DNA of 64,000 bases from Phyllobacterium myrsinacearum. GTDB taxonomy: Bacteria; Pseudomonadota; Alphaproteobacteria; Rhizobiales; Rhizobiaceae. Positions 57,611 to 64,000 of this stretch are shown here, piece after piece. Numbering within the stretch: position 1 is the first letter of the stretch; each line of letters starts with the position of its first letter. The stretch spans positions 248,001 to 312,000 of the forward strand of contig NZ_PVBT01000003.1 of NCBI RefSeq assembly GCF_002980555.1, given 5' to 3'. The notes under the pieces are model-generated. The model did not search any database and was not told where the DNA came from. It was given only the letters and a program-made list of their open reading frames with translations. The translations under genes were made by a program, and so were the position numbers.

Positions 57611-58183
57611 ATGACCAGGCGGAATGACAAACGCGATATCCTTGTTGCCACGGCTGCCGGCCTGTTCTGGCGGCGCGGCTTTACCGTGACGAGCCTTGCA
57701 CACATCGCGGCGGAATCGGGAATTCCGCTCGGAAACATCTATTATTATTTCAAGACAAAGGCCGAGCTGGCGCGCGGCGTTGCCGATATTTTCGTTGCTG
57801 AAACCGAGGATATGCTGACATCCATTGTCGAAGCGGATCAGGACCCGCGCAAGCGTCTGCTGCTGCTCATTGAAAAACTGTCGCATTCCCTCAAAAGCCG
57901 CGTTGAGAACGGCTGCCCCATTGCCCTGGGTATACGGGATTTTCGCCATGAATCGCCCGAAGCCGCCGAACGGGCGGCCGAAGTTTTCAGTCTCCTGATC
58001 GGGTTTATTGGAAGGGAACTTGGACGCACCGGCATACGCCCCTCCGCAGCGCTTGGAACCGCCCGCAATGCGCTGGCCGAATGGCAGGGCGGCATCATGC
58101 TCGCCCATGGGCTCAAGGACGCCACGGTGCTTGCTGAGAGCTTCCGGCGCATGGAGCGGCTTCTGGTGCCAATACGGGGCTAG
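57611..58183 (+). CDS. TetR/AcrR-family transcriptional repressor
   Basis: A 190-residue regulator whose N-terminus has the TetR helix-turn-helix (ILVATAAGLFWRRGFTVTSLAHIAAESGIPLGNIYYYFKTKAELA, about residues 10-53). The C-terminal ligand domain is of the kind that senses small reactive or lipophilic compounds, but the ligand cannot be told. A perfect palindrome lies just upstream. It is followed after 68 bases by a small zinc peptidase gene and lies downstream of the Trm112-like gene; no obvious enzyme target is adjacent. Confidence 0.9.
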   Translation: MTRRNDKRDILVATAAGLFWRRGFTVTSLAHIAAESGIPLGNIYYYFKTKAELARGVADIFVAETEDMLTSIVEADQDPRKRLLLLIEKLSHSLKSRVENGCPIALGIRDFRHESPEAAERAAEVFSLLIGFIGRELGRTGIRPSAALGTARNALAEWQGGIMLAHGLKDATVLAESFRRMERLLVPIRG

Positions 58184-58251
58184 TCCTCATGCCACTCGCA
58201 TCCTTGTTGCAAAGGCACTATATGAGGCCGGAATGTGCTCCAGGAGTTTTA

Positions 58252-58674
58252 ATGGCCAGAAGTAATCAAACCGCCGATTGGGGCAATCGCTTGTCGCCAG
58301 CCCTGAGCGAGATCGAATCGCTCGCGATAGAAGCCTATGCGCATCTGCCTGACGATTTTCGCAGTCTGTGCGGCGATATCACCATTCAGGTGTCAGAATT
58401 CCCCGATGATCAGATTGTCGAGGATATGGGGCTGGAATCGCCGTTCGATTTGCTCGGATTGTTTGAAGGCCGGGGCATCGGGGAACGGTTCTCGCTTCAA
58501 ACCGGCGAAAGACCCAACACCATCACGATTTACCGACGCGCCGTGCTGGATTACTGGGCGGAGTATGAGGAGGCTTTAGGGGATATCGTCACTCATGTTC
58601 TCATCCATGAAATCGGTCATCATTTCGGCCTGTCGGACGAAGATATGGAACGTATCGAGGCCAGTGTCGAATGA
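58252..58674 (+). CDS. Metallopeptidase family protein (DUF1025, HExxH)
   Basis: A 140-residue zincin-like protein ending with the metal-binding HVLIHEIGHHFGLSDEDM motif (HEIGHH with a downstream aspartate), the mark of the MPN-named DUF1025 metallopeptidases, whose substrates are unknown. ATG 58252 (MARSNQTADW) has AGGAG upstream; the frame from 58189 is not used. The 157 bases after it hold a possible gene remnant. Confidence 0.88.
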   Translation: MARSNQTADWGNRLSPALSEIESLAIEAYAHLPDDFRSLCGDITIQVSEFPDDQIVEDMGLESPFDLLGLFEGRGIGERFSLQTGERPNTITIYRRAVLDYWAEYEEALGDIVTHVLIHEIGHHFGLSDEDMERIEASVE

Positions 58675-58831
58675 TCGCCCGATGGTATGGACCGGGACCC
58701 TGCCATGGGGCGGTTTGACCGGCCTATCCTTTTGAGGACGGGCCGGTCCTGCGCGAAGACGCCGTGGCAAATAGGCCAGAACGGCAATATCAGGTGCTCA
58801 AACGGCGTCTTGCCGAGACCGCAGGTGCGGC

Positions 58832-59038
58832 TCAGTAATCGCCGAGTTTGATGCCAGGCTCATAATCGACGCCATCGACATCCTTCACAACAGCCTGACC
58901 GCACTGCATTACCCCGGTGACCGTATTGAATGCGTAGGTGGGCGAACCATAGATGTGCCAGCCCTTGTTGATGGCCGCCGTCACCTTGTGGCAGAAGCTG
59001 GCATCATCGGGTCCGGTCAAAAAACGATAAAGTTTCAT
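58832..59038 (-). CDS. DUF1737 small protein
   Basis: A 68-residue protein: [42 protein letters not shown], matching DUF1737, a family of small proteins of unknown function. It overlaps the end of the citE-like gene by four bases (59035-59038, ATGA), so it is translated with it and downstream of it. Confidence 0.87.
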   Translation of the reverse strand: MKLYRFLTGPDDASFCHKVTAAINKGWHIYGSPTYAFNTVTGVMQCGQAVVKDVDGVDYEPGIKLGDY

Positions 59039-59937
59039 GCTTTGTCTCCTGTCATTTGTGCTTTGGCCATCATCTTCTCCGCGTTGGCAAGATGCAGGCG
59101 TTCTATCATTCTTCCGTTCAGGGCAATGGCGCCCTTGTCAGCATTTTCAGGAAGGGAAAATGCCTCGATGATCGATCGTGCGGCGGCAAGAGCCGCCTCA
59201 TCCGGTGAAAAGGCGCGATTTGCCGCATCGATCTGCGCGGGATGAATAAGCGTTTTGCCGTCGAAACCCATTCTTGCGCCCTGACCGCATTCAACCGCGA
59301 AACCCGCCGCATCGGCAAAGTCATTATAGACGCCATCGATCACATCCAGCTTTCCGGCTTTGGCACAAAGGACGATCTGCATCAGCCATGGGACGAGATA
59401 GGCGCGATTGCCATCCATGCCGGTACCGGTTTCCTTGGCGATATCGTTCGTTCCGACGACAAAGCAATCCAGACGCCCGGTGGATCGTAAACCCAACTCG
59501 GCGATCTCGTCCGCATTGAGGATACCGCGCGGCGTCTCGATCATCGCCCACAGCCGGATGTTCTCGGACGCATCGGTCTCCTCAAGTATTTCAGTCACGC
59601 CGGTTACGTCCTGCGGTATTTCCACCTTGGGTAGAAGGATGGCGTCAGGCTTGCAGGCGCGTGCCGCGAGAAGATCCTCGGCACCCCATTCACTGGCAAG
59701 CGCATTGATGCGGATGATCCGTTCGGTCTTGCTTGCCGGATTGGCCGGATTGGCCGGATTGGCAAGAAAATAATCACGCAGCGCTTCGCGGGCATCTTCC
59801 TTGGCTTCAGGAGCAACGGCATCCTCAAGATCAAAAATAACCGCATCCGCGGCAAGGCCTGCAATCTTGGCAAGAGCCTTGGCGTTCGAGGCGGGAACAT
59901 AGAGAACCGAGCGGCGAGGGCGAGATGTTTTGCGCAT
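59035..59937 (-). CDS. HpcH/HpaI-type CoA ester lyase (CitE-like)
   Basis: About 300 residues of the CitE/HpcH aldolase superfamily, which cleaves or forms C-C bonds of acyl-CoA thioesters such as malyl- or citramalyl-CoA. It begins [19 protein letters not shown], then [19 protein letters not shown] (acidic metal ligand) and [11 protein letters not shown] and [13 protein letters not shown] start at ATG 59937; ATG 59952 is also possible. An in-frame tandem repeat encodes NPANPANPA (59735-59761). It is divergent from leuD and followed by a coupled DUF1737 gene. Confidence 0.87.
59735..59761. repeat. Three-copy 9-bp tandem repeat inside the CitE-like gene
   Basis: GCCGGATTG is repeated exactly three times in frame, giving Asn-Pro-Ala repeats in the protein. 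Such units can change copy number by slippage without breaking the frame. Confidence 0.9.
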
Positions 59938-60088
59938 GGCACTTTTTTGCATTGAACGAAGGGGCAAGACAAGCGCAATCATGCGGTGTGGCCTGCCCCA
60001 ATCTGCCACAGGGGGAAAGTCTTTGATTCGCTGCCAAGCTGGTGTAAAGCGAAGACACCCGTATTACCGAACACTACAGGCAGAGATC

Positions 60089-60694
60089 ATGGACAAGTTT
60101 ACCAAGCTCACCGGCGTTGCCGCACCGTTGCCGATCATCAATATCGACACGGATATGATCATTCCGAAGGATTATCTGAAGACGATCAAGCGCACCGGTC
60201 TTGGCACAGGGCTCTTTGCGGAAATGCGTTACAATGAGGACGGTTCGGAAAATCCGGACTTCGTCCTCAACAAGCCAGCCTATCGCAAGGCTCAGATTCT
60301 GGTGGCCGGCGATAATTTCGGCTGTGGCTCCAGCCGCGAGCATGCGCCATGGGCATTGCTCGATTTCGGCATCCGCTGTGTCATCTCGACCAGCTTCGCC
60401 GATATTTTCTACAACAACTGCTTCAAGAACGGCATCCTGCCGATCCGCGTCAGCCATGAAGACCTGGACAAGTTGATGGACGATGCGCAGCGCGGCGCCA
60501 ATGCAACGCTGACGATCGATCTGGAAGAGAAGACGATCAAGGGGCCGGATGGCGGGCAGATCAGTTTCGATCTAGACGAGTTCCGCCGCTACTGCATGCT
60601 GAATGGTCTTGATGACATTGGCCTGACCATGGAAAAGGCGGCGAAGATCGACAGCTTTGAGGCAGCCAACGCCCAAAGGCATCCCTGGGCCTGA
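60089..60694 (+). CDS. leuD: 3-isopropylmalate dehydratase small subunit
   Basis: Leucine synthesis: with LeuC it isomerises 2-isopropylmalate to 3-isopropylmalate. A 201-residue aconitase swivel domain starting [30 protein letters not shown], with the [13 protein letters not shown] motif. ATG 60089 is chosen over a long upstream frame that covers the divergent citE start. leuC is not in the window. Followed by a perfect terminator. Confidence 0.97.
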
Positions 60695-60721
60695 GTTCAG
60701 GCCGCGGCAATTGTTGCAACG

Positions 60722-60750
60722 AAAAAGGGCGCAGAAACTGCGCCCTTTTC
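60722..60750. terminator. Bidirectional terminator between leuD and asd
   Basis: AAAAGGGCGCAG (60723-60734) and CTGCGCCCTTTT (60738-60749) form a perfect 12-bp stem with an AAA loop, giving T tails on both strands for convergent leuD and asd. Confidence 0.93.
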
Positions 60751-60772
60751 TATTTTGGCTATATGCCAGGTT

Positions 60773-61807
60773 TCAGGCAGCAAGCTGCTTCGGCTGAATG
60801 AGCCCGCGTGCGACCAGAAGCTCGGCGATCTGAATGGTGTTGAGGGCTGCACCCTTGCGCAGATTGTCCGAAACAATCCAGAGTGACAGGCCATTCTCGA
60901 CAGTAATGTCTTCACGGATGCGCGAAATATAGGTGGCGTCTTCGCCCGCTGCTTCATAGGGGGTGATGTAGCCGCCATCCTCGTGCCGGTCGATAACCAG
61001 GCAGCCCGGAGCATCCGAGAGGATCTCACGGGCCTCTTCCGCACTCATCGGGCTTTCGAACTCGATGTTCACGGCTTCCGAATGGCCGATGAAGACGGGC
61101 ACGCGGACGCATGTTGCCGTGAGCTTGATCTTGGGATCGAGCATCTTCTTGGTCTCGGCGACCATCTTCCACTCTTCCTTGGTGTAGCCGTCTTCCATGA
61201 AGACGTCGATGTGTGGGATGACGTTGAAAGCGATGCGCTTGGTGAACTTCTTGGCTTCCACCGGATCGGCAACGAACACGGCCCGTGACTGCTGGAACAG
61301 CTCATCCATGCCGTCCTTGCCGGCGCCGGAAACGGACTGGTAGGTGGCGATCACAAGACGCTTGATCCTTGCCTTGTCATGCAGCGGCTTCAACGCCACC
61401 ACAAGCTGGGCGGTCGAGCAATTCGGGTTGGCAATGATGTTCTTCTTGGAGAAACCGACAATCGCGTCCGGATTTACTTCCGGCACGATCAGCGGCACGT
61501 TCGAGTCGTAGCGCCAGGCGGAGGAATTGTCGATAACGACACAACCCTGTGCGCCGATCTTCGGCGACCATTCCTTGGATATGTTGCCGCCTGCCGACAT
61601 CAGGCAGATATCGGTATCGGAAAAATCAAAGGAATCGAGCGCCTTGACCTTTAGCGTACGGTCGCCGAAGGAAACTTCCGTACCCTGGGACCGGCGCGAG
61701 GCGAGCGCCACGACTTCACTGACCGGAAAGCCGCGCTCTTCCAGTATTGTCAACATCTCGCGGCCCACATTGCCTGTGGCGCCTACAACCGCAACCTTGA
61801 AACTCAT
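60773..61807 (-). CDS. asd: Aspartate-semialdehyde dehydrogenase
   Basis: Reduces aspartyl phosphate to aspartate semialdehyde, the branch point to lysine/diaminopimelate, threonine and methionine. 344 residues: FKVAVVGATGNVGREMLTIL is the NADP fold, NPNCSTAQLVVAL carries the catalytic cysteine, and RNSSA-like SSAWRYD and SVSGAGKDGMDEL follow. ATG 61807 has AGGAGATAATACAG before it. Upstream on the same strand are a leader ORF and terminator hairpin (61841-62032) that probably control it. Confidence 0.97.
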   Translation of the reverse strand: MSFKVAVVGATGNVGREMLTILEERGFPVSEVVALASRRSQGTEVSFGDRTLKVKALDSFDFSDTDICLMSAGGNISKEWSPKIGAQGCVVIDNSSAWRYDSNVPLIVPEVNPDAIVGFSKKNIIANPNCSTAQLVVALKPLHDKARIKRLVIATYQSVSGAGKDGMDELFQQSRAVFVADPVEAKKFTKRIAFNVIPHIDVFMEDGYTKEEWKMVAETKKMLDPKIKLTATCVRVPVFIGHSEAVNIEFESPMSAEEAREILSDAPGCLVIDRHEDGGYITPYEAAGEDATYISRIREDITVENGLSLWIVSDNLRKGAALNTIQIAELLVARGLIQPKQLAA

Positions 61808-61840
61808 CTGTATTATCTCCTGTCCCTCACCGCTCTTTGC

Positions 61841-61865
61841 AAAAACCCGCTGGCCATTGCGGGTC
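61841..61865 (-). terminator. Attenuator-type terminator hairpin in the asd leader
   Basis: On the minus strand GACCCGC, an eight-base loop AATGGCCA and GCGGGTTTTT: stem of six to seven pairs with a five-T tail, 34 bases before the asd ATG. The loop holds GGCCA, which can pair with TTGGCC at 61901-61906 instead, so it can be switched. A GC-rich hairpin (CCCGGG pairs at 61872-61888) lies just before it. Confidence 0.65.
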
Positions 61866-61912
61866 TTTTCCCCCGGGCCGGACCCGGGAGGGGGCGAGCA
61901 GGCCAAGGGAAA

Positions 61913-62032
61913 TCAGACCGTTTTGGTGGTCGTTTTGGCCGGCATTTTTGTGGAAAGAACAGACGCGCCTGCGCATCCGGCACGCATGCCGGAACCGCTC
62001 GTCAAAAAGTGTGCAGTTGATTCGCTGCTCAC
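61913..62032 (-). CDS. Probable asd leader peptide, rich in Lys/Thr/Met codons at its end
   Basis: A 39-residue ORF that starts at GTG 62032, seven bases after a strong AAGGAG (62040-62045), and stops at 61913. The last eleven residues are KMPAKTTTKTV: three Lys, four Thr and one Met, all end products of the aspartate pathway that asd serves. It is followed by a terminator hairpin and then asd, with a promoter-like sequence just upstream. The segment GGCCAA inside the control codons (61935-61940) can pair with TTGGCC (61901-61906) downstream, the first of the switching pairs expected of an attenuator. Confidence 0.65.
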   Translation of the reverse strand: MSSESTAHFLTSGSGMRAGCAGASVLSTKMPAKTTTKTV

Positions 62033-62056
62033 GGGGCGTCTCCTTAACCTAACATG

Positions 62057-62084
62057 CTTGTATCCGCTTTCCAAAAAGAGTCAA
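62057..62084 (-). promoter_or_regulatory. Candidate sigma-70 promoter for the asd leader
   Basis: On the minus strand TTGACT (62084-62079), a 16-base spacer and TACAAG (62062-62057). Transcription would begin close to 62050, about five to ten bases before the leader Shine-Dalgarno. The rest of the gap to the MFS gene (62085-62368) shows only a GTCCTGCAGGAC palindrome near 62255 and the MFS ribosome site. Confidence 0.5.
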
Positions 62085-62368
62085 TTGTCCATTCAAAAGA
62101 GAAGAATATGTCGCGTTACGCACAATTTTGGACTTGTGCTGTAAAAAGCGGTCTTTGCTTTCGCGAATATTTGTTCAACACTTGTGCGGTGCATGGGGTG
62201 CATGACCTTTGGGGGGAGAGTTCCGGAGGACATTCACCGGCGTAGGATGAGTGGACGTCCTGCAGGACGCGGCCATTGATTTATACGCAGTGACAAATCC
62301 GAGGGACGTGGCCAGCTGTTGGGCTGACCGGGTTCCGGCGTAAATGCTGTTTTCTGGGAGGAATACAA

Positions 62369-64000
62369 ATGGCGACCACTTCTGTGGCTGGTGCTGCCAG
62401 CCGGGGTATGACGCGAGAAGAGAAGAAAGTTATCTTCGCTTCCTCGCTCGGAACTGTTTTCGAATGGTACGATTTCTACTTGTATGGCTCATTGGCTGCC
62501 TTTATCGGCGCCGCGTTTTTCAGTGAGTATCCTGAGGCAACGCGCAACATATTTGCGCTTCTGGCGTTTGCCGCGGGCTTTCTCGTGCGCCCCTTCGGTG
62601 CCCTGGTCTTCGGACGGATCGGCGATCTCGTCGGCCGCAAATACACGTTCCTCGTCACCATTCTGATCATGGGCCTGTCGACTTTCCTGGTGGGTATTCT
62701 TCCCGGATCGGGCAGTTGGGGCATCGCTGCACCCATCATCCTGATTGCGCTGCGCATGCTGCAGGGCCTGGCTCTCGGCGGCGAATATGGCGGTGCTGCC
62801 ACCTATGTGGCTGAACATGCGCCGAACAATCGCCGCGGTTATTACACCTCCTGGATTCAGACCACCGCAACACTCGGTCTGTTCCTGTCCCTGGTGGTTA
62901 TCCTCATCGTCCAGAACTGGCTTGGCAAGGACGCCTTCGCGGCCTGGGGCTGGCGCGTGCCTTTCATTCTCTCATTCGTTCTTCTGGGTGTATCGGTGTG
63001 GATTCGGCTCTCCTTGAGTGAATCGCCGGCGTTCAAGAAGATGAAAGAAGAGGGCAAGGGCTCCAAGGCACCGCTGTCGGAAGCTTTCGGTCAATGGAAG
63101 AACGCCCGGATTGCACTGCTCGCCTTGTTCGGCCTTACCGCCGGTCAGGCCGTCGTCTGGTATTCCGGCCAGTTCTATGCCTTGTTCTTCCTGCAGAACG
63201 TGTTGAAAGTGGACGGCCAGTCAGTCAATATCATGATCGCAATCGCGCTCCTGCTTGGCACCGGCTTTTTTGTCTTCTTTGGCTGGCTGTCCGACAAGAT
63301 CGGCCGCAAGCCGATCATCATGGCGGGCCTTGCCTTGGCAATCCTCACCTATTTCCCGTTGTTCAAAGCACTTACGCATGCCGCAAATCCGGCGCTGGCC
63401 CAGGCGGAAGCGACAGTCCGTGCCACGGTGACCGCCGCTCCGGGCGACTGCACCTTCCAGTTCAACCCGGTCGGTACAGCCAAGTTCAACAATTCATGTG
63501 ACATTGCGACATCGTTCCTGTCCCGCAGCTCGGTGCCTTACGAGGTGGTTGCCGGTCCTGCCGGACAGCCAGCCACGGTCAAGATCGGCGATACGGTCAT
63601 TCCGTCCTATGATGCGGTGGCCGCTGGTGCCGATGCTGCCGCCAAAGGCGCGGTACTCACCCATGATCTGAACCTGGCGCTGCAGAAGGCCGGTTTCCCG
63701 CTCGTGCGGGCACCTGCCAAGGTTGCCGATGCCAAACTTGACGGGTTCATCAAGGCCAATCCGGAATTGAACCTCGATGCCGCCGCCGTTCGCGCCGGCG
63801 AAAAGACGGTTACGCCGGTGGCTGACCTGGTCAAGGCGAAGCTCATTACGCCGGAACAGGCTGCCGGTGCCACGGATATGGCCGTTTACACCGTTCCCAA
63901 TGGCGGCCTCTTCACCATGGTGGCCGATCCGAAAGCCGTGAATTGGCCGGTGACCATCGGTATCCTGTTCATCCTCGTGCTTTACGTGACGATGGTTTAT
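62369..64000 (+). CDS. MHS-family MFS transporter with a large periplasmic insert (3' end missing)
   Basis: A metabolite/H+ symporter of the MHS group (relatives carry citrate, shikimate, proline or alpha-ketoglutarate). GTVFEWYDFYLYGSLAA near the start and GRIGDLVGRKYTFL are the family signatures; GGAGG lies before ATG 62369. 544 codons are in the window and the frame is open at base 64000. After about nine membrane segments comes an insert of about 185 residues (about 337-523) without membrane character and with two cysteines (GDCTFQF, NNSCDIA), followed by the next membrane helix. The substrate is unknown. Confidence 0.88.
   Translation, partial: MATTSVAGAASRGMTREEKKVIFASSLGTVFEWYDFYLYGSLAAFIGAAFFSEYPEATRNIFALLAFAAGFLVRPFGALVFGRIGDLVGRKYTFLVTILIMGLSTFLVGILPGSGSWGIAAPIILIALRMLQGLALGGEYGGAATYVAEHAPNNRRGYYTSWIQTTATLGLFLSLVVILIVQNWLGKDAFAAWGWRVPFILSFVLLGVSVWIRLSLSESPAFKKMKEEGKGSKAPLSEAFGQWKNARIALLALFGLTAGQAVVWYSGQFYALFFLQNVLKVDGQSVNIMIAIALLLGTGFFVFFGWLSDKIGRKPIIMAGLALAILTYFPLFKALTHAANPALAQAEATVRATVTAAPGDCTFQFNPVGTAKFNNSCDIATSFLSRSSVPYEVVAGPAGQPATVKIGDTVIPSYDAVAAGADAAAKGAVLTHDLNLALQKAGFPLVRAPAKVADAKLDGFIKANPELNLDAAAVRAGEKTVTPVADLVKAKLITPEQAAGATDMAVYTVPNGGLFTMVADPKAVNWPVTIGILFILVLYVTMVY

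Follow-up and report, generated by a model that had tools for sequence, protein, structure and literature searches.

The window analysed here is a whole stretch of 64,000 nucleotides from Phyllobacterium myrsinacearum. On its minus strand, asd (60776–61807, ATG at 61807) encodes an aspartate-semialdehyde dehydrogenase of 344 amino acids. The product scored 475 bits against TIGR01296 (cut-off 324) and 529 bits against NF011456 (cut-off 223), and contained the Pfam domains PF01118 and PF02774. The nearest named asd locus was that of P. calauticae, whose protein is 99% identical. The reaction is a branch point for lysine, threonine and methionine and, via diaminopimelate, for the cell wall. Directly after asd, a strong symmetrical hairpin with U and A tracts (60722–60749) is probably a two-way terminator; it resembles the Rfam families STnc40 and STnc320, below their gathering scores. 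On the plus strand, a divergent gene for an MFS metabolite/H+ symporter (62369–64000) runs off the window. Its score against TIGR00883 was 305 bits, below the cut-off of 443; the best match covers residues 28–346 and is followed by a long non-matching stretch and then another hydrophobic segment.

The elements upstream of asd, the gene that they would control, are all read on the minus strand. A putative promoter, TTGACT-N16-TACAAG (TTGACT at 62084–62079, TACAAG at 62062–62057), is followed by a Shine-Dalgarno-like AAGGAG (62040–62045) and by a leader ORF of 39 codons plus TGA (61913–62032; GTG at 62032–62030, TGA at 61915–61913). Its last 11 codons, the candidate control codons KMPAKTTTKTV (61916–61948), hold three Lys, four Thr and one Met. 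Behind the leader, the hairpin CCCGC(AATGGCCA)GCGGG is followed by T5 (61845–61841), with 33 bases left to the asd ATG; the complete element, ACCCGC(AATGGCCA)GCGGGT plus the U tract (61841–61864), was assigned by sequence as a putative terminator and is called hairpin B below. The initial annotation had listed the promoter-like pair, AAGGAG, the ORF with its KMPAKTTTKTV end, the hairpin with T5, and the three short motifs GGCCAA, TTGGCC (61906–61901) and TGGCCA (61856–61851), and direct reading of the letters confirmed that all of them are present. A generic promoter and hairpin scan flagged neither the leader promoter, because its rule demands a T at the last position of the −10 element, nor hairpin B. 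Covariance models of Rfam 15 gave no match in the asd leader at E values up to 5 (window positions 58000–64000) and none at the gathering score in the asd leaders of eight loci, and profile searches matched no known protein family to the leader. In Mesorhizobium soli (L076), a region past the asd gene (2496–2547 of that locus) matched the Rfam ffh sRNA family above its gathering score.

Leader conservation and amino-acid specificity

A DNA query matched all 20 congeners searched over the entire leader, and each of the 20 kept a GTG or ATG start behind a GGAG motif as well as the Lys/Thr-rich end. Among 21 Phyllobacterium loci, a GGAGA motif preceded the GTG or ATG in every case, and an in-frame leader of either 39 or 43 codons was always present, the difference being four whole codons. 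KTTTKTV was intact in 19 of the 21; the other two read KMTTKTV (L018) and KTTIKTV (L021). These loci are close kin and in effect few independent cases; the sets of loci used throughout overlap in species, so that their counts cannot be read as independent events. The KTTTKT codon pattern occurred only once in the 5.4 Mb genome, at the asd leader. No Lys/Thr leader preceded hom, lysC or three dapA-like genes of this genome, where at most three of the last 12 codons were Lys/Thr. All 21 Phyllobacterium loci carry the promoter-like motif TTGAC[TC]C ahead of the leader (0.5 expected), as do 58 of the 74 named leader-bearing loci (1.6 expected) and 12 of 48 others (1.2 expected).

The 74 loci just mentioned are those, out of 80 named asd loci, in which at least six of the last 12 ORF codons encode Lys or Thr; at each of them, the score was higher than in all 100 base shuffles. 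The six named loci lacking a leader were three metagenome bins (L125, L128 and L140) and three Bartonella loci (L136, L137 and L139). For the order-wide sample of Hyphomicrobiales, 89 genomes were taken out of 195–199 matches (the 29 best and 60 hand-picked over families). Two of them, L153 and L183, were dropped for want of a recognisable asd start, by which family f30 was lost and 38 of 39 families remained readable. A Lys/Thr-rich leader was present in 56 of the 87 genomes with a readable asd start, and at least one such locus was found in 22 of 38 families with a sliding 12-codon window or in 20 of 38 with the strict last 12 codons. On the reverse strand, the sliding Lys/Thr score reached 6 in 2 of 87.

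Ranking all 190 amino-acid pairs placed Lys plus Thr first: at least six of the last 12 codons belonged to this pair in 122 of 167 loci, against 0.6 loci expected from Markov sequences and 0 on the reverse strand, and at least eight in 102 of 167. The eleven pairs ranked next all include Thr; Ala plus Thr, for example, reached six in 118 loci but eight in only 29. On average, the last 12 codons of the 122 leaders held 5.7 Thr and 2.7 Lys, values that are only descriptive since the ORFs were chosen for Lys/Thr. The initial annotation had also counted Met among the sensed amino acids. This part of the proposal did not hold: in the 122 leaders, chosen for Lys/Thr as stated, Met made up 1.8% of the last 12 codons vs 4.6% of the remainder. 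Between families, the leader peptides could not be aligned by eye while the Lys/Thr content was kept (e.g. TTTTTTTRKTTA, SKTTTTKTKPTAKGGTAG and MTATSKTKTTKTT), as is expected of control codons. The asd-leader observation is real and far beyond chance, and the putative control codons correspond to end products of the controlled pathway in the case of Lys and Thr, with Met not enriched.

Two observations concern the edges of this distribution. In alphaproteobacteria outside the order, at least seven Lys/Thr were seen upstream of asd in 6 of 64 loci (L208, L226, L239, L256, L257 and L261); this set consisted of 69 loci minus L242, L264 and L265, with L269 lacking an ORF and with L202 and L203, which lie inside the order, not counted, and the 40 further class-level genomes were taken from the upper part of the match list. 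In Bartonella, a leader ending in KKTTKKII was present in two of five named loci (L097 and L108, vs L136, L137 and L139), and L168, a 1.5 Mb genome from that family, also had no leader.

RNA segments and predicted folds that depend on ribosome position

The RNA around the leader stop contains three recurring segments. In the window, segment 1 is GGCCAA (61935–61940), which can pair with segment 2 if the leader is untranslated. Segment 2, GGTCTGATTTCCCTTGGCC (61901–61919), spans and follows the leader stop and is the predicted 5' arm of an antiterminator. Its predicted 3' arm is segment 3, GGCCCGGGGGAAAAGACC (61862–61879), which overlaps both the terminator 5' arm and a GC-rich hairpin, hairpin A (CTCCCGGGTCCGGCCCGGGGG, 61870–61890), predicted to form once segment 2 is masked. 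For folding, 150 loci (149 for the long-range helix discussed below) with at least six Lys/Thr in the last 12 codons were used out of 199 (L001–L030 and L032–L200). Among these 150, 109 loci, mostly of Rhizobiaceae type and 31 of them non-redundant, had a GG[CT]C motif after the stop with the usual spacing, and the recurring segments were seen in them. In 24 of the 31 non-redundant loci (about 13% expected), GGCC as segment 1 preceded the last control codons, at a position relative to them that shifts among loci. Segment 2 directly follows the leader stop, for example as CGUCUCUGGCC in Rhizobium and Sinorhizobium and as UUUCCCUUGGCC in Phyllobacterium, and the 3' arm of hairpin A, with sequences such as GGCCGGGGAC or GGCCCGGGGGAA, serves as segment 3.

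Pairing of segments 1 and 2 was stronger than with shuffled partners (p=1.6e-6) and weakly better than with partners swapped between loci (p=0.04). Pairing of segments 2 and 3 also exceeded shuffled partners (p=4e-5), although own partners were not stronger than swapped ones (p=0.13). The alternative pairings suggested in the initial annotation include one between TTGGCC and the loop of the terminator, as a possible antiterminator. Tested over 28 loci, pairing between segment 2 and the hairpin B region did not exceed that of shuffles (p=0.24) or of swapped partners (p=0.78), and this pairing was abandoned; the better-supported partner is the 3' arm of hairpin A together with, in Phyllobacterium, the terminator 5' arm. 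There the 2:3 helix is longer: it also includes GGUCU from the end of the leader, paired with AGACC in the 5' flank and arm of hairpin B. The arms of the 2:3 helix differ between clades by a bulge. Hairpin A was misplaced at some loci in the pairing tests; it was re-placed for the folding of nascent RNA, in which L021 was still misplaced.

A consensus fold of 33 divergent leaders recovered only two hairpins, a small one inside the control codons and hairpin A. After L132 was dropped, hairpin A comprised seven pairs with 96% of cells paired in 32 sequences, and its two-sided changes fell mainly at one pair (GC in 15, CG in 14). The control-codon hairpin (GACC/GGUC or GACG/CGUC) changed on both sides at one pair in 15 of the 32. 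Taken together, the two hairpins had two-sided changes in 4 of 11 pairs, with 31 such cells against 15.8 after shuffling, and none of 500 shuffles was as high. As many as 29 of the 31 cells fall in two pairs, and the split largely equals that between two main clades, which leaves few independent events. Within the control-codon hairpin (61930–61916 in the window; alignment columns 24–39), both sides change by synonymous codons, ACC..ACG vs ACG..ACC, so that the peptide is kept as well as the RNA fold.

The two-sided change in the control-codon hairpin would also be expected if the conserved stretch were an RNA structure alone, with the Lys/Thr open frame a by-product. We regard this as very improbable, because the Lys/Thr content persists despite unalignable peptides and differing distances to asd, because the Phyllobacterium leaders differ in length by whole codons, and because the available part of PMC10117765 reports a Sinorhizobium counterpart as translated.

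The attenuator reading further predicts folds that change with the position of the ribosome. Nascent RNA was folded up to the end of hairpin A, with the free RNA taken to begin at the leading edge of the ribosome. With a stalled ribosome, the 2:3 form had a probability above 0.5 in 21 of the 31 non-redundant loci (83 of 109 in all), compared with 3 of 31 (9 of 109) for untranslated RNA. With the ribosome at the stop codon, hairpin A formed in 26 of 31. All three ribosome states folded as expected of an attenuator in 18 of 31. The stalled state disrupted hairpin A in 25 of 31, against 10.8 after the stretch from the stop to hairpin A was shuffled, and untranslated RNA formed hairpin A in 23, against 13.4 after shuffling of the codon stretch. 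Among 24 hand-picked loci, the exceptions were L027, L076 and L079, which had no 2:3 form, and L022, L023 and L068, in which it reached only 0.19–0.22.

For the window, in RNA up to the loop of hairpin B, the antiterminator probability was 0.97 in the stalled state, 0.37 in untranslated RNA and 0 at the stop codon. Shuffled leader ends matched the stalled value in 7 of 300 cases and reached 0.5 in 67 of 300. Across Phyllobacterium, the antiterminator formed in 19 of 21 loci when stalled, in 14 of 21 when untranslated and in 0 of 21 at the stop codon. Scanning the leading edge along the window leader gave the antiterminator at −4 from the stop or earlier, and hairpin A at −2 or later. A ribosome usually covers about 12 bases past the first base of the A-site codon. 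With this footprint, a switch between −4 and −2 would work only if the ribosome stalls no later than the first Lys and Thr of KTTTKTV. Once the RNA was extended to the U tract, the terminator was the more stable form even with a stalled ribosome in 14 of 21 Phyllobacterium loci; its probability in this state was 0.21 in the window vs 0.98–1.0 in the five nearest relatives. At the stop codon, the terminator formed in 18 of 21. Since equilibrium often favours the terminator even when the ribosome is stalled, the choice between the folds must be kinetic. By computation, the predicted folds are mutually exclusive and depend on ribosome position. The central proposal, that asd has a leader-peptide attenuator whose control codons are those for Lys and Thr, is supported.

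Putative terminators and the possible output of the switch in different clades

A hairpin followed by at least four U in six bases was found in 17 of 21 Phyllobacterium loci, where 1.1 were expected, and in 17 of the 74 named loci, where 4.2 were expected. By genus, the latter 17 comprised Phyllobacterium (4 of 4), Brucella/Ochrobactrum (4 of 10), Bartonella (2 of 2), Mesorhizobium (2 of 3), and one each of Corticibacterium, Falsochrobactrum, Shinella, an uncultured Rhizobium bin and another bin; the detailed terminator table covered 45 loci picked by hand. Judged by this lenient U tract, an intrinsic terminator is apparent in the window and in 17 of 21 Phyllobacterium loci, for which a chance origin is unlikely; at least five U in a row followed the hairpin in 6 of the 21. 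Ahead of asd, the U-tract terminator was missing from all 27 named Rhizobium loci and all 5 Sinorhizobium loci. It was present in only 2 of 19 families outside that of the window and absent from the other 17, and 55 of the 83 loci with the stalled-state switch were without it. As no terminator was found in Rhizobium, Sinorhizobium and most other families, we do not assign these relatives to the transcriptional type. The expectation of the initial annotation that relatives would conserve the leader start, the Lys/Thr/Met codons and the hairpin was therefore borne out for the start (21 of 21) and for Lys and Thr, failed for Met, and applied to the hairpin in Phyllobacterium (17 of 21) and not in Rhizobium (0 of 27).

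The many switch loci lacking a U-tract terminator (55 of 83) would be accounted for if the same Lys/Thr sensor governed translation of asd instead of its transcription. Hairpin A would then let the preceding CU-rich stretch pair with the asd ribosome-binding site, and the hairpin of the stalled state would hide this stretch and free the site. A long-range helix with its 3' arm in or near the ribosome-binding site does recur with changing sequence, as GCTCTCT:AGAGAGC (L086, L098 and L101), CCCTCTCC:GGAGAGGG (L032) and CTCTCTCGCC:GGCGGGAGAG (f39), and is stronger than in shuffles (p=0.001), but not stronger with its own partners than with swapped ones (p=0.39). It was seen in 110 of 149 loci, 75.6 being expected from shuffles, whereas Phyllobacterium had it in 6 of 21, below the 9.2 expected. 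When the stalled hairpin was held, the site was freer than in untranslated RNA (0.56 vs 0.47, p=0.006, 21 loci), but hardly so relative to the ribosome at the stop (0.56 vs 0.52, p=0.15). At equilibrium, the site was less accessible in the stalled state than in the stop state in 46 of 74 named loci and more accessible in 2; it was less accessible in 18 of 21 Phyllobacterium loci, and in other families it was more accessible in 20 and less so in 17 of 48. Masking of the ribosome-binding site is thus unsupported by equilibrium folding and weak with the stalled hairpin held. We keep translational control as a rival to transcriptional attenuation and consider it unlikely.

The leader might instead act through Rho, with a C-rich stretch between the leader stop and asd serving as a Rho loading site that is exposed or hidden by the position of the ribosome. 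Pyrimidine-rich stretches do follow the leader stop at many loci, many loci again have no U-tract terminator, and a Rho-dependent attenuator controlled by a uORF was proposed for another gene of Sinorhizobium meliloti in the portion of PMC12218461 covered here. Against this, the Phyllobacterium terminator occurs far above chance, and we rate Rho somewhat below translational control in likelihood.

A further possibility, which we put forward tentatively and at less than even odds, is that an order-wide, ancient Lys/Thr attenuator of asd kept its sensor, namely the peptide and the 1:2/2:3 switch, while its output was exchanged among clades. In Phyllobacterium and some of its relatives the switch would end transcription; Rhizobium, Sinorhizobium and many further families would have another output, by way of translation or Rho.

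Proposed mechanism and relation to known leaders

The comparisons above established that a short ORF with a Lys/Thr-rich end is conserved and that RNA segments recur, and, as in known attenuators, this apparently translatable ORF lies between a putative promoter and the gene and is kept in relatives. Here, we propose that asd is controlled by a ribosome-mediated attenuator sensing charged tRNA-Lys and tRNA-Thr, a reading to which we give a probability of about 70%. When Lys or Thr is short, the ribosome would stall at the start of the Lys/Thr cluster and cover segment 1. Segment 2 (61919–61901) would thereby be freed to pair with segment 3 (61879–61862), taking up GACC of the terminator 5' arm before the 3' arm exists, so that the polymerase would read into asd. 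When both amino acids are ample, the ribosome would reach the TGA and mask segment 2, and hairpin A and the terminator would form, with transcription stopping near 61841. If the leader were not translated, 1:2 pairing would favour termination in the window, though not in all congeners. The asd leader most likely turns the gene on in this soil bacterium when Lys or Thr is scarce; we infer the actual termination, the starvation response and the translation of the leader in Phyllobacterium cells.

SEP5 of S. meliloti was described in a study that we take to be Hadjeras et al. 2023. In the sections of that paper available (PMC10117765), SEP5 has six Thr and three Lys codons near its 3' end, lies in the 5'-UTR of a gene that the authors name 'aspartate dehydrogenase', is suggested to be a leader peptide, and was seen to be translated by Ribo-seq and Western blot. 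The Sinorhizobium asd leaders in our set (L101, L102, L115, L116 and L138) end in KTTAKTTTKTV, that is, with six Thr and three Lys, and we take them to be SEP5, matched by this description. By the same description, the asd leader resembles SEP5 in having a Lys/Thr-rich C-terminal end in the asd 5'-UTR. The two accounts differ in that the same sections of PMC10117765 give no RNA switch for SEP5 and call it conserved only in Sinorhizobium, whereas the asd leader was traced across Hyphomicrobiales.

Other systems share individual traits with the asd leader. The thr operon attenuator of Escherichia coli likewise combines end-product control codons, alternative folds and a terminator before a pathway gene; it reads Thr and Ile codons and controls thrABC, while the asd leader reads Lys and Thr ahead of a branch-point gene. 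The trp attenuator of S. meliloti (rnTrpL/peTrpL), from the same bacterial order, also has a translated leader peptide, but it controls trpE, a Trp gene, and its sORF is leaderless, according to the part of PMC10117765 that treats it. The SAM-II riboswitch of alphaproteobacteria is another case of RNA control in the aspartate-derived pathway, with metA and metZ as the genes concerned in S. meliloti (PMC9373788). It binds SAM directly and covers the Met branch, in contrast to the Lys/Thr codons of the asd leader; this cover may explain why the asd leader needs no Met codons.

In the open literature on asd and leader peptides or attenuation, the SEP5 paper (PMC10117765) was the sole source found with such a leader; a 2004 survey (PubMed 15135544) may list asd. 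The word asd is absent from the main text, as far as it was accessible, of a 2005 paper on RNA motifs in alphaproteobacteria (PMC1273637) and of a 2010 paper on premature terminators (PMC2965389). Papers on the sRNAs AbcR1/2 (among them PMC8844928) were set aside as irrelevant, since 'aSD' means anti-Shine-Dalgarno there. The suggestion in the initial annotation that the case may be new is hence only partly upheld. New relative to the published accounts found are how widely the leader occurs, that Met is excluded, the RNA switch and an output that depends on the clade, while the Sinorhizobium part was anticipated by SEP5, for which the sections of PMC10117765 cited above had already suggested a leader-peptide role and demonstrated translation.

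If the proposed reading is true, a Lys plus Thr leader would explain how much of an order, plant symbionts included, tunes the asd step. The asd leader would then be a tractable case of a leader reading two amino acids, and the clade-dependent terminator makes the exchange of attenuator outputs directly testable.
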